64,000 bases of DNA from Tildeniella nuda ZEHNDER 1965/U140 (GTDB lineage Bacteria; Cyanobacteriota; Cyanobacteriia; Leptolyngbyales; Leptolyngbyaceae), in the NCBI GenBank assembly GCA_019358895.1, contig JAHHIG010000020.1, positions 43,059-107,058 of the forward strand, given 5' to 3'. A program made the translations under genes and the position numbers. The notes beneath the pieces are model-generated. The model saw only the letters and a program-made list of their open reading frames with translations, was not told the DNA's origin and searched no databases. Of this stretch, positions 4,093-7,618 are shown in pieces (within the stretch, counting starts at the first letter, position 1; every line of letters begins with the position of its first letter).

Positions 4093-4884
4093 TTACAAAT
4101 TCAATGCGAGTTGAAGCTGTGATTTGGCGCTGCTTTCAGGCAATGGTACAGGACTTGCACTGACGGCTGAACAGTAACGGGCAAAGGTGCAGCGATCGCA
4201 CTGTCGTCCGGGTTGTGGTTCCCAGCCGCGATCGTAGCGTAGCCGCACTGCCAGATCGCTCACCATCGTTTCAACTCGCTGTCTGTGGGCTGGCGTTGCC
4301 TCAAAGCGAATTTTTTCACCTGTACGAAGAAAGAGCAGGCTGAGATATTTCAAACTTTGCTGGTACGTTTGCTCTAGCGCCAGGTAATATAACCCAATCT
4401 GCACATCAATTTCGGTAGCGTCAGGTAGCTTTACCTCGCGGCTCGATTTGTAGTCAATCAACTCCAAGCCATCTGAGAGAAAGTCGAGGCGATCGTAGCG
4501 TCCAGTAATCAAAAACTCCAAATTTTCAACCTGCAAAAAGCCTTGAATCCTACCTTCCACCGCCAGGGGTTGCGTCAGTGCCACCTCGCTGGCGATGAAA
4601 CGGTAGTAGTAGTTTTCCAGGATTTCAAATCCTTCCATGACCTGACTAGCACTCAATTCGGTAGAATGCTGCCGCCAACAGTGATGCACCCAACGTAAAT
4701 CTGGCAGGGGTTGTTCATAATGCCAATCTCGATGGCATTGGGCAAGCGCCTGGTGCAGCGCAACACCTAGTGAGGCTGACCCAAAAAACTCATTCGTGGT
4801 TAGCTTTCGTTCATAGCGGAGATAGTAGGCATAGGGGCAGCGGTTGTACGCCTGAAGCTTCGTCGCTGAAATTTGGTAAGCCAT
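4093..4884 (-). CDS. PD-(D/E)XK nuclease, Cas4/AddB-like, Fe-S
   Basis: Putative single-strand-specific DNA exonuclease of the RecB/Cas4-type PD-(D/E)XK superfamily, 263 aa. Nuclease motifs are GRYDRLDFL followed by LELIDYKSS (the Asp...Asp-x-Lys core) and QIGLYYLAL (motif with Gln and Tyr). Four cysteines have the spacing of an AddB/Cas4 iron-sulfur staple: Cys16 near the N-terminus (NRCPYAYYLRY) and Cys229, Cys232 and Cys238 near the C-terminus (CDRCTFARYC). No CRISPR array, other cas genes, or helicase domain is present in the window, so it is not obviously part of an adaptation module. DNA repair or recombination is the likeliest role. The protein is otherwise uncharacterised. Confidence 0.8.
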   Translation of the reverse strand: MAYQISATKLQAYNRCPYAYYLRYERKLTTNEFFGSASLGVALHQALAQCHRDWHYEQPLPDLRWVHHCWRQHSTELSASQVMEGFEILENYYYRFIASEVALTQPLAVEGRIQGFLQVENLEFLITGRYDRLDFLSDGLELIDYKSSREVKLPDATEIDVQIGLYYLALEQTYQQSLKYLSLLFLRTGEKIRFEATPAHRQRVETMVSDLAVRLRYDRGWEPQPGRQCDRCTFARYCSAVSASPVPLPESSAKSQLQLALNL

Positions 4885-4977
4885 ACTGTTCGCTTTGAAT
4901 GAAAGGCACTACGAAGGTGGATTGTTTGTTACGTGTCAGCCGTCGTTCAGCACTTCTGATTTCTGACTTCTGACTTC

Positions 4978-5214
4978 TCAGTTGTTCTGCCCGATCGGAC
5001 GCTTAAACAAGGCATCCAGGTAGATACGCGAGGCTTGACGATGGTTTTGCTTTTCGGGAACAGAATCAACGCTGCGGTTTTGCAGCAGAAACAGTGACAG
5101 GGCAGCGGCAAACACCCGGTCTTGATCCCAATCAGGGCGGATTTCGAGATAGTGCTTCAGTGAATCGTGCAGAACTTCGGGAACTTCGACTAACAGGCTA
5201 ACGGTGCTATTCAT
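4978..5214 (-). CDS. Small conserved cyanobacterial protein, DUF2811-like
   Basis: 78-aa protein starting MNSTVSLLVEVPEVLHDSL with a core HYLEIRPDWDQDRVFAAALSL. I recognise this as the DUF2811-type family found in cyanobacteria; function is unknown. The beginning resembles a short strand followed by two helices, reminiscent of ribbon-helix-helix-like small DNA-binding proteins, but that is only an impression. It is transcribed away from the DnaA-box cluster at 5596-5691, so its promoter lies next to that site. Confidence 0.65.
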   Translation of the reverse strand: MNSTVSLLVEVPEVLHDSLKHYLEIRPDWDQDRVFAAALSLFLLQNRSVDSVPEKQNHRQASRIYLDALFKRPIGQNN

Positions 5215-5848
5215 AGAATTTTGGGTTCTCCCTTACATGGGCAGGGTGAATGGTGTACACCTGACAGCTAGCGTTTTAAGACAGCTAAACGCAGCGCAAA
5301 GCTAGACCTTGCTGATGCCACCTCTCTCTAATCAAGACAGGATGGGCATTTGCCAGCGATTCGGTCAGCGCGCTTTCAAGCAGGTCGTCACATTGTGCAG
5401 TCGCGCTCCCCGTCTTGTCAATGCTGCGAAATGTTACGCCCAACTTTAGACAATCAAAAGATTCACGAGAGAATCGTGGTTTGAAGCGCTTTTTTGTTAC
5501 AAAATTTCATGAAGCTTGGGCATTTTCCACGCGCTGAACCCGATCGTCCCCAATTGATCGATCGCGGCGGCAAAGACCGATTACTCCGTAGAGCCTGTGG
5601 AAAACTTTCGTAAACCTGTGGAAAACCTGTGGATTTTGTGTGGAGAAGAGATAAACAGCTTGTGGAAACAGTGTGGATTTCCTGGGGAAAAGTTAAGGCA
5701 ATGATAAGAATTGCAAAAAGTGCAAAAGTTATGGCTTAACAGCTTTTTGCGGATGCTCTACAAGCAAACAGCACAACAATGCCGAAAGTGCCGAGAAATT
5801 TCTCTGCGAACTCCGCGACTCTGCGGTGTATTTTCTTCAGCGATCGCC
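5215..5848. other. Intergenic region holding the candidate origin
   Basis: A 634-base non-coding stretch. The left part (5215-5520) shows nothing I can name. 5523-5531 is TTTTCCACG, one mismatch from the cyanobacterial DnaA box TTTTCCACA, in the opposite orientation to the others. 5534-5570 is rich in CGATCG. 5596-5691 is a phased DnaA-box array. 5692-5760 is AT-rich. Confidence 0.6.
5596..5691. other. Phased DnaA-box array, candidate oriC
   Basis: Nine-mers related to TGTGGAAAA (reverse of the cyanobacterial DnaA box TTTTCCACA) start at 5596 (TGTGGAAAA), 5617 (TGTGGAAAA), 5628 (TGTGGATTT), 5639 (TGTGGAGAA), 5661 (TGTGGAAAC), 5672 (TGTGGATTT) and 5683 (TGGGGAAAA). All have the same orientation and the spacings are 21, 11, 11, 22, 11 and 11 bases, i.e. 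one or two helical turns. Immediately downstream (5692-5760) is AT-rich sequence that could unwind. Two boxes are perfect and five have one to three mismatches. This is the architecture expected of a DnaA filament-forming site. dnaA and dnaN are not in the window, so origin function is inferred; a DnaA titration or regulatory locus is an alternative. Confidence 0.65.
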
Positions 5849-7618
5849 TCACTGCTTTGGGTGACTTTTAAAGTAGGTTTTGTAAATTTCATGGGCGATC
5901 GGCACTGCCGACACTGCTCCAAAACCGCCGTTCTCTACCACGACAGCCACCGCAATTTGAGGTTTGCTCACTGGTCCAAACCCAACAAAGAGTGCGTTAT
6001 CGGGCTGACCTGGAACTTCCGCTGTACCCGTTTTGCCACCCGTGAGCGGAATCGAGCCATTGTTAAGCTGGCTAGCAGTGCCTGATTGGACTACGGCAAT
6101 CATTCCCGCTTTGATAATGGCGATCGTGCCAGGGTCTAAGCCAGTTGCCACGGGGTGCATTGACGGTGTGTTGCTTTCTGCCAGTTGTAGGTGGGGTTTA
6201 ACGCGCTTGCCTCCATTGACAATGGCGGACACCATCACTGCCATTTCCAGCGGCGTGACTTGCACTAACCCTTGCCCGATCGACATGCTTACAGTATCGC
6301 CACCGTACCAGGGTTCCTTGTACAGCTTTTCCTTCTCAGCAGGTGTAGGCACTGATCCCCGGCTACCACCCTCCAGACCCATATTGTCTGTCGTGCCAAC
6401 CCCCAACCGTTTTGCCCACTTAGAAATCTCTTCTGGTCCCGCTGCTAGACCAACCTGGTAAAAAAAGGTGTTGCTGCTATAAGCAAACGCATCCCGAAAG
6501 CCAATCACCCCGTAGCCGCTGCCGTGTTCGTGAAACAAGTGCCCACCCAGGTTGAGCGCTGCAAAGGTCGCCAAGGTTGAATCAGGCGAAAACTTGCCCG
6601 ACTGGATACCAGCCGCCGCAGTTACAACCTTAAATGTGCTGCCAGGTGGATAACCTTGCAGGGCGCGGTTCAAGAATGGCTGATTGCGGCTCTGTAGCTG
6701 TTTCCAGTCGGCTGGCGAAATGCGGCGTGTAAAGAGGTTGGGATCAAACGTGGGTCCGCTTGCCAGTGCCAACACTTCACCTGTTCTTACATCCAGTACC
6801 ACAACGGCTCCACGGCGTTTTGCCAGTGCTTTTTCAGCCGTCTTCTGTAGTTCCAAATCAAGGGTGAGCTGCATTGGCGCACCAGATTGTGATGGCTTCA
6901 TGCCAAGCGACTTGACGACCTGTCCCGCCGCGTTGACTTCGAGCAGTTGTCCGCCCCAAACCCCTTGAAGCGTAGTGTTGGCAATGCGCTCAAGCCCCAT
7001 CTGACCCACTAGCATACCCATTGGGTAAGCAGGATTTTGCTTCAAATCCTCTGCTGTTGCCTCACGGATATAGCCCAGTACATGAGCCGCCAGATCAGCA
7101 TTTGGATAGTAGCGGTTTGACTCGCCACGGATTTCTAACCCTGCAAACTGATTGTGCTTCTCAGCCAACGCTACAAAGGCAGGAAGGGTTAAATCACGAC
7201 TGATGCGAACGGGGGTTGGAGAGCGATATCCCACTTGCTCTAACTTAGCGAGAATTTCCTCACGCGGTAGGTTGAGGATCTGTCCCAGTTTGGTTGCGGT
7301 CTCTGACCACTGAGCTTTGGATTGTTCTCTCGGTGAGAGATACACCGATCGCGCCAGCCGATTAGCAGCCATCAGCTTACCGTTGCGATCGAGAATGTTG
7401 CCTCGATCAGACGGCGAGGGGACTAGCGAAATCCGATTTTTATCAACGAGATGGCGGTGATACTCGCCCTGAACAAGCTGTAGCTGGATCAGACGCAAAA
7501 GGCAACCGCTGATCAAGCCTGTGAGCAGCAGCAGCAGCATGACCGATCGCTGCGATCGCTGTGTCAGCGCCAGGTGAATCCGGCGGCTTTTTGAATTGAG
7601 GGAAAGACCATTAGCCAT
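5849..7618 (-). CDS. mrdA: Penicillin-binding protein 2 (elongasome transpeptidase)
   Basis: Class B penicillin-binding protein, the D,D-transpeptidase that crosslinks peptidoglycan during cell elongation. With ATG 7618 (MANGLSLN) it has 589 aa; an in-frame extension to 7744 is low-complexity and unlikely to be translated. One membrane anchor lies near residues 25-45 (SVMLLLLLTGLISGCLLRL). A dimerisation region with RGNILDRNGKLMA follows. The transpeptidase domain shows the three active-site motifs: STFK near 328 (serine nucleophile), SSN near 381 and KTGTAE near 530. Its 3' end faces the candidate origin. No rodA or mreBCD is adjacent. Confidence 0.93.
   Translation of the reverse strand: MANGLSLNSKSRRIHLALTQRSQRSVMLLLLLTGLISGCLLRLIQLQLVQGEYHRHLVDKNRISLVPSPSDRGNILDRNGKLMAANRLARSVYLSPREQSKAQWSETATKLGQILNLPREEILAKLEQVGYRSPTPVRISRDLTLPAFVALAEKHNQFAGLEIRGESNRYYPNADLAAHVLGYIREATAEDLKQNPAYPMGMLVGQMGLERIANTTLQGVWGGQLLEVNAAGQVVKSLGMKPSQSGAPMQLTLDLELQKTAEKALAKRRGAVVVLDVRTGEVLALASGPTFDPNLFTRRISPADWKQLQSRNQPFLNRALQGYPPGSTFKVVTAAAGIQSGKFSPDSTLATFAALNLGGHLFHEHGSGYGVIGFRDAFAYSSNTFFYQVGLAAGPEEISKWAKRLGVGTTDNMGLEGGSRGSVPTPAEKEKLYKEPWYGGDTVSMSIGQGLVQVTPLEMAVMVSAIVNGGKRVKPHLQLAESNTPSMHPVATGLDPGTIAIIKAGMIAVVQSGTASQLNNGSIPLTGGKTGTAEVPGQPDNALFVGFGPVSKPQIAVAVVVENGGFGAVSAVPIAHEIYKTYFKSHPKQ

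Follow-up and report, generated by a model that had tools for sequence, protein, structure and literature searches.

The cluster of DnaA-box-like sites in the 634-bp spacer ahead of a small DUF2811 gene is, in our judgement, very probably a DnaA-controlled regulatory region of that gene and not an origin of replication. It lies in a Tildeniella window (the whole analysed stretch of 64,000 nucleotides) that occupies positions 43059-107058 of contig C7 in a draft genome of 6.08 Mb and 38 contigs. We observe the boxes themselves, their helical phasing, a near-constant distance between them and a promoter-like sequence, arrays at two DUF2811 paralogs, and co-loss or decay in most of the genomes that lack dnaA. 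We infer that DnaA would bind the array and that its binding would alter DUF2811 transcription. The features of the region are the following.

4978..5214, minus strand: DUF2811 gene of 78 codons and a stop codon (match to Pfam PF10929, E 2e-23)
5392..5397, minus strand: CACAAT, putative -10 element, 18 bp from TTGACA
5416..5436, minus strand: TAACATTTCGCAGCATTGACA, conserved block ending in the putative -35 element TTGACA (5416-5421)
5490..5501, minus strand: TGTAACAAAAAA, occupying the position of the conserved block GTAACAAAAA in the interval between array and promoter
5543..5553, minus strand: TTGGGGACGAT, occupying the position of the conserved block TGGGGATTT (a weak inverted box)
5594..5691, minus strand: DnaA-box array predicted from the sequence, seven TTTTCCACA-like sites pointing toward DUF2811
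5596..5604, minus strand: exact box TTTTCCACA, the final one in gene direction, 174 bp ahead of TTGACA
5617..5625, minus strand: exact box TTTTCCACA
5628..5636, minus strand: partial box AAATCCACA, 3 mismatches, TCCACA core
5639..5647, minus strand: box TTCTCCACA, 1 mismatch
5661..5669, minus strand: box GTTTCCACA, 1 mismatch
5672..5680, minus strand: partial box AAATCCACA, 3 mismatches, TCCACA core
5683..5691, minus strand: box TTTTCCCCA, 1 mismatch
5704..5716, minus strand: TTGCAATTCTTAT, conserved motif immediately upstream of the array

Sites were scored on the minus strand against the published cyanobacterial DnaA box, TTTTCCACA (PMC4674748). The preliminary description had counted seven boxes in one orientation on an exact 11-bp grid. 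The seven sites are indeed found at the positions it gave, all in the same orientation and with spacings of 21, 11, 11, 22, 11 and 11 bp; the grid holds for the spacings of 11 and 22, but the initial step of 21 falls off it, and while five of the seven are good boxes, those at 5628 and 5672 retain the TCCACA core only, with 3 mismatches each. Over its 98 bp the array thus comprises two perfect, three one-mismatch and two partial boxes. Five same-strand boxes with at most one mismatch fall within 110 bp, against a maximum of two in 300 random Markov-1 sequences of 64 kb; lone box-like words are not enriched within the window (TTWTNCACA, 7 observed vs 5.6 expected). An oppositely oriented TTTTCCACG, also reported earlier, exists at 5523..5531 but is not conserved across five aligned relatives. 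The A+T-rich flank (69% A+T at 5700-5735 vs 49% for the window), the length of the spacer, bounded by ORFs at 5214 and 5849, and the absence of dnaA and dnaN from the window, their matches sitting on contigs C8, C9 and C2, were all described correctly. The ORF across the spacer from DUF2811 is, judging from its sequence, presumably penicillin-binding-protein-like.

The array recurs at most DUF2811 loci over a broad range of cyanobacteria. The first draw covered 244 genomes of the phylum, 104 of them with DUF2811, all in the class of the window (presumably Cyanobacteriia) save for one weak match; of the 136 DUF2811 places in this draw 112 were read, namely all 85 of the class outside family f19, presumably the picocyanobacteria, and 27 of the 50 within it. 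When 800 bp upstream of the gene were examined at 90 loci, with two divergent paralogs (L088 and L089) left out, an exact box on the same strand was present at 81, and at least two boxes with no more than one mismatch were likewise present at 81. Adjacent boxes are most often 22 bp (79 times), 21 bp (53 times) or 11 bp (18 times) apart. Exact boxes number 148 on the gene-direction strand vs 7 on the opposite one, and 48 shuffled consensus words give a mean of 0.46 and a maximum of 5 against those 148. The 78 named loci, whose species overlap with the 90-locus set and from which L108 and L133 were omitted for their short upstream sequence, include 75 with an exact box and 77 with at least two boxes; at 54 of them AATTCTTAT lies upstream of the array. 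Further families have an exact box at 17 of 20 loci and picocyanobacteria at 13 of 20, several of the latter having two exact boxes, one direct and the other inverted, at a distance of 44-46 bp.

The exceptions are few. Nine of the 90 loci have no exact box, and two of these (L071, L090) are dnaA-less. Six dnaA-positive loci with one-mismatch boxes only (L064, L068, L070, L072, L075, L076), and one, L096, with no box at all upstream of DUF2811, weigh against DnaA control. The boxes at L070 and L072 (genomes G085 and G241) are TTATCCACA and TTATCCCCA, which are nearer to the E. coli box, so that the box seems to have drifted in the family of these genomes. Baaleninema (L160) was set aside as an apparent exception, since four boxes were found 1620-1685 bp upstream, behind an insertion which we take to be a TnpB-like gene.

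Within the Tildeniella genome a second DUF2811 paralog on contig C35 (E 1e-27) has a similar box array upstream in the same relative orientation, and a third, divergent copy on C38 (L088) lacks boxes. The closest ORF beyond the array belongs to up to 68 families across 128 loci, an upper bound given that these are predicted ORFs of at least 100 residues, some clipped by the locus ends. With neighbours this variable, it is DUF2811 that the array accompanies, and not a fixed site on the chromosome.

The interval between array and gene contains a conserved TTTCGCAGCATTGACAA...CACAATGA block, which reads as a putative promoter. In the window it lies 174 bp from the array. From the last exact box to TTGAC the distance is 170-178 bp at 128 of 161 usable loci (median 174, sd 15), which is a measure of conservation and not of independent events, the loci being related; conserved boxes thus hold a constant place relative to the promoter, as control of the sda type (see below) would have it. 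The promoter-to-gene distance is variable at the same 161 loci (sd 83). For each locus the promoter match closest to the gene was taken, with no pre-selection for 174 bp; 37 of 198 loci dropped out because the promoter match was missing or no exact box preceded it, and 20 picocyanobacterial loci and six dnaA-less or dnaA-doubtful Nostocaceae loci were omitted. Shuffled pairings of arrays and promoters place 6.9 loci on average, and 16 at most, at 170-178 bp (2000 trials). The combination of a stable box-promoter geometry with a variable leader matches the needs of a transcription switch. Two observations weigh against DnaA control here: the TTGACA form of the promoter was not found in the twenty picocyanobacterial loci scanned (GCATTGACA), and an array some 170 bp upstream of the promoter is far away compared with classical DnaA-controlled promoters. 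In the Stenomitos-like genomes (L098-L102) TAACATTTCGCAGCATTGACA is among the longest identical runs of the entire spacer; exceeding in length what a -35 element needs, it may include a site for another regulator.

How might the array act on the gene? DnaA would assemble a short filament on the phased boxes along one face of the helix, and this filament would act across approximately 174 bp on the TTGACA promoter of DUF2811, probably switching it on; further conserved blocks, TGGGGATTT, GTAACAAAAA and TTTCGT, are found in the intervening stretch. As to the sign of control we prefer activation, because a long stretch separates the array from the promoter downstream and because the gene decays once DnaA is lost.

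Could the array be the chromosomal origin or a second origin, at which DnaA would unwind the A+T-rich flank? The candidate-origin reading of the preliminary description consisted of two parts with different fates. Its DnaA part is the best inference from the identity of the boxes with the published cyanobacterial box, their helical phasing and the scarcity of box pairs in dnaA-less genomes; its origin part gained no support, and we regard it as highly improbable. Dense phased boxes do adjoin A+T-rich DNA, the motif AATTCTTAT is common to this array and the dnaN-side oriC of the same genome, and replication in some cyanobacteria has been reported to begin at many sites (PMC7198777). That dnaN-side region is, however, the better candidate. 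A published survey places oriC next to dnaN in 55 of 68 cyanobacteria (PMC4674748). The whole genome contains 59 exact boxes, and upstream of dnaN on contig C9 a stretch of 196 bp holds six, arranged as two opposed sets with three boxes each, with a TAGTAGTAG trio next to the first box; this region (L001:7650-7880), which also carries AATTCTTATT, is likely the true oriC of the genome. The array in the window shares with it the clustering of boxes but neither the trio, none being found by a DnaA-trio search at 5450-5800, nor the adjacency to dnaN, and the GC skew of the window itself makes no clear turn near 5.6 kb. Further points against an origin are the presence of two such arrays, one per DUF2811 paralog, on different contigs, the fixed geometry of the array relative to the promoter-like sequence of DUF2811, and the lack of AATTCTTAT in two other origin regions, L196 and L197. 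As a general origin element AATTCTTAT was rejected, being absent at these two regions and beside the clusters of the guaA type described at the end.

If the array controls DUF2811 through DnaA, what becomes of it in genomes devoid of dnaA? Several independent losses of dnaA have been published for cyanobacteria (PMC7198777). We scored dnaA presence with the DnaA family TIGR00362. Among 114 genomes of the class in the first draw, 100 have both dnaA and DUF2811, none has dnaA without DUF2811, three have DUF2811 without dnaA and 11 have neither (Fisher 6e-13, uncorrected for descent, the genomes being related and the counts not independent). The 14 dnaA-less genomes span six family or genus groups (f13; f7 g17; f7 g16; f22; f6 g46; f12 g18). 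The three that retain DUF2811 differ in its state: G147 has two stops in it; in G183 it is intact and is accompanied by three boxes, one exact and two with a single mismatch; G054 retains promoter, gene and the motif AATTCTTAT but no box, its congener G121 having dnaA and three exact boxes. The motif TTGCAATTCTTAT is also retained at the G054 locus (L071) despite the vanished boxes, and since it outlasts them, some other factor may read it.

The boxes themselves appear to follow dnaA genome-wide, exact box pairs missing in 13 of the 14 dnaA-less vs 23 of the 100 dnaA-positive genomes; 19 of these 23 belong to f19. The box pairs of dnaA-less G109 (L194, on C2, a contig of 26.7 kb) were set aside: the three boxes there lie 21 bp from one another in a near-identical repeat that has the look of plasmid iterons.

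In a wider draw DUF2811 was found in 238 of 242 class genomes. The four without it are the dnaA-less G051 and G056 and two dnaA-positive drafts, G258 and G351 (380 and 460 contigs), which weigh against DnaA control. Below the DnaA cut-off among the 242 are G051, G054, G056, G308, G319 and two more, by E-values G392 and G407. G308 and G319 are incomplete drafts with no DnaA match; these two, along with G392 and G407, keep DUF2811 despite their sub-cut-off DnaA, which likewise weighs against DnaA control, and we read their sub-cut-off DnaA as assembly gaps.

For Nostocaceae (f7) the expectation was written down ahead of examination. DUF2811 is present in all 108 dnaA-positive genomes of the family. 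Among the ten that are dnaA-less, four (G149, G051, G233, G489) lack the gene and three have it broken, by stops in G461 and G506 and in G468 by having domain positions 12-57 alone in frame; the domain is intact in G431, G484 and G469. The firm prediction, that DUF2811 would be missing or broken in G461, G489 and G506, was borne out in all three. The weaker one, of decay in the genomes with dnaA pseudogenes (G431:C1:2163448-2164774; G468:C95:26689-28002; G484:C64:53748-55009), held by domain search in one of three, and the two failures weigh against DnaA control; dnaA was apparently lost recently in these three genomes. At the DNA level the boxes, the promoter and the start codon are seen to decay in stages. 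G461 and G506 have neither boxes nor promoter, and G484 has kept the promoter and has no boxes left in that place. One exact box is left in G431, and one exact and one mismatched box in G468, and both genomes have ATA where their relatives have the ATG start. G469, a draft of 89% completeness, has array, promoter and gene all present, and it may be without dnaA merely through its assembly. Ten dnaA-positive loci of the family read alongside all have at least two boxes and the promoter.

Altogether, DUF2811 is absent in 12 of the 21 dnaA-less genomes of the first and third draws, broken in four, intact with lost or eroded boxes in four and complete in one (G469). The five with an intact domain (G054, G183, G431, G484, G469) weigh against DnaA control. 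The boxes nevertheless behave as dependent on DnaA, a hallmark of sda-type control, in that they are gone or eroded at the dnaA-less loci read, with the exception of G469. Gene loss is not general in these genomes, as the cyanobacterial control family DUF1825 is kept in 21 of 21.

The array might also serve to titrate or recharge DnaA in the manner of datA, DARS or DnaA-box clusters, with DUF2811 as a mere neighbour. Its many boxes, non-coding nature and remoteness from oriC would suit such a role, sites of this kind are described in B. subtilis and E. coli (PMC5295017), and another recurrent three-box cluster exists in cyanobacteria. We nevertheless consider this reading unlikely, because the array stays beside DUF2811 as other neighbours change and keeps a constant distance to the promoter-like sequence, and because the DUF2811 gene itself disappears along with dnaA. 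Titration is possible as a side effect of an array that would primarily control DUF2811.

The protein product offers few clues to its function. The window protein matches the PF10929 profile with 82.9 bits vs a gathering threshold of 26.6, and is 95-96% identical to two Stenomitos records, which suggests that the genome is close to Stenomitos. In Pfam, DUF2811 is the only family above the cut-off for the window and C35 proteins and for 40 members; NCBIfam gave no match for the two DUF2811 proteins scanned, and a sequence search of solved structures gave no significant relative (best E 0.83). Two AlphaFold models (pLDDT 68.6 and 77.7) predict three helices, and a fold search with them gave no significant match. 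The literature searched, to which subscription papers and preprints mostly did not belong, names neither DUF2811 nor PF10929 and describes no such array. A noncoding RNA in the spacer was also considered and was rejected, Rfam having no match at 4800-6000 with E up to 1.

Small size, and a sequence pattern that by our own reading resembles that of ribbon-helix-helix repressors, a group with members that bind direct repeats of 11 bp, raise the alternative that DUF2811 is a DNA-binding protein regulating its own gene, with the repeats as its operator and their likeness to DnaA boxes secondary. The repeats are, however, identical to the DnaA box of oriC, G054 retains DUF2811 without any box after the loss of dnaA, the divergent paralogs L088 and L089 have no array, and no ribbon-helix-helix family is among the Pfam matches of the 40 members, all of which makes an operator of this kind very improbable. 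Returning to DnaA control of DUF2811, the loss of the protein along with dnaA implies that its job would need DnaA, either directly or via DnaA control. This suggests a place for the protein in a pathway that depends on DnaA; in the simplest case it would be a small effector of DnaA or would regulate DnaA by feedback. In a bolder form, which we find conceivable but would not yet call probable, DUF2811 would be a partner of DnaA, near-universal in the class, that is switched through a fixed promoter module and feeds back on DnaA or performs its non-origin task; such a loop would explain why polyploid cyanobacteria keep DnaA even in those cases in which replication can dispense with it.

The closest system known to work in a like manner would be the Bacillus subtilis gene sda, which encodes a small protein and is under direct DnaA control (PMC8203912); we claim no kinship with it, none having been found in protein or promoter. 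Both have DnaA sites, predicted ones in our case, upstream of a small-protein gene, and both would give DnaA a task outside oriC. Unlike in sda, the DUF2811 boxes are arranged in a phased row that points one way and ends about 174 bp ahead of the putative promoter, and DUF2811 itself occurs throughout most of a bacterial class. With the DnaA-box clusters of B. subtilis and with datA and DARS of E. coli, which are non-coding groups of boxes away from oriC (PMC5295017), the array shares these properties, but it differs from them in belonging to a single gene and keeping a single distance to the promoter. The dnaN-side cyanobacterial oriC (PMC4674748) has in common with it the box TTTTCCACA, an A+T-rich flank and, in the Tildeniella genome, the AATTCTTAT motif; the oriC of this genome has two opposed box sets and a trio, whereas the DUF2811 array has one direction and no trio. 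A 2020 study states that what DnaA does in cyanobacteria whose replication does not require it "remains unclear", and mentions gene regulation as one possibility (PMC7198777). The DUF2811 array constitutes one definite, conserved candidate target of DnaA outside replication, and as the presence of DUF2811 tracks dnaA through several losses, a non-origin role of DnaA becomes a testable question in standard laboratory strains.

Other groups of three exact boxes in the Tildeniella genome are found near a guaA-like gene (L002) and on contig C35 (L003). Three boxes on the same strand at intervals of 20-22 bp form a recurrent cluster (L002:8005-8065; L178-L182; L183 and L187-L189), the guaA-side cluster of the Tildeniella genome (L002) having spacings of 31 and 21. 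Six of the 19 recurrent three-box places read adjoin a guaA-like gene, and seven adjoin one shared gene family, which we take to be a cation-efflux transporter. The guaA- and transporter-side cluster is possibly another DnaA-controlled or DnaA-titrating site.
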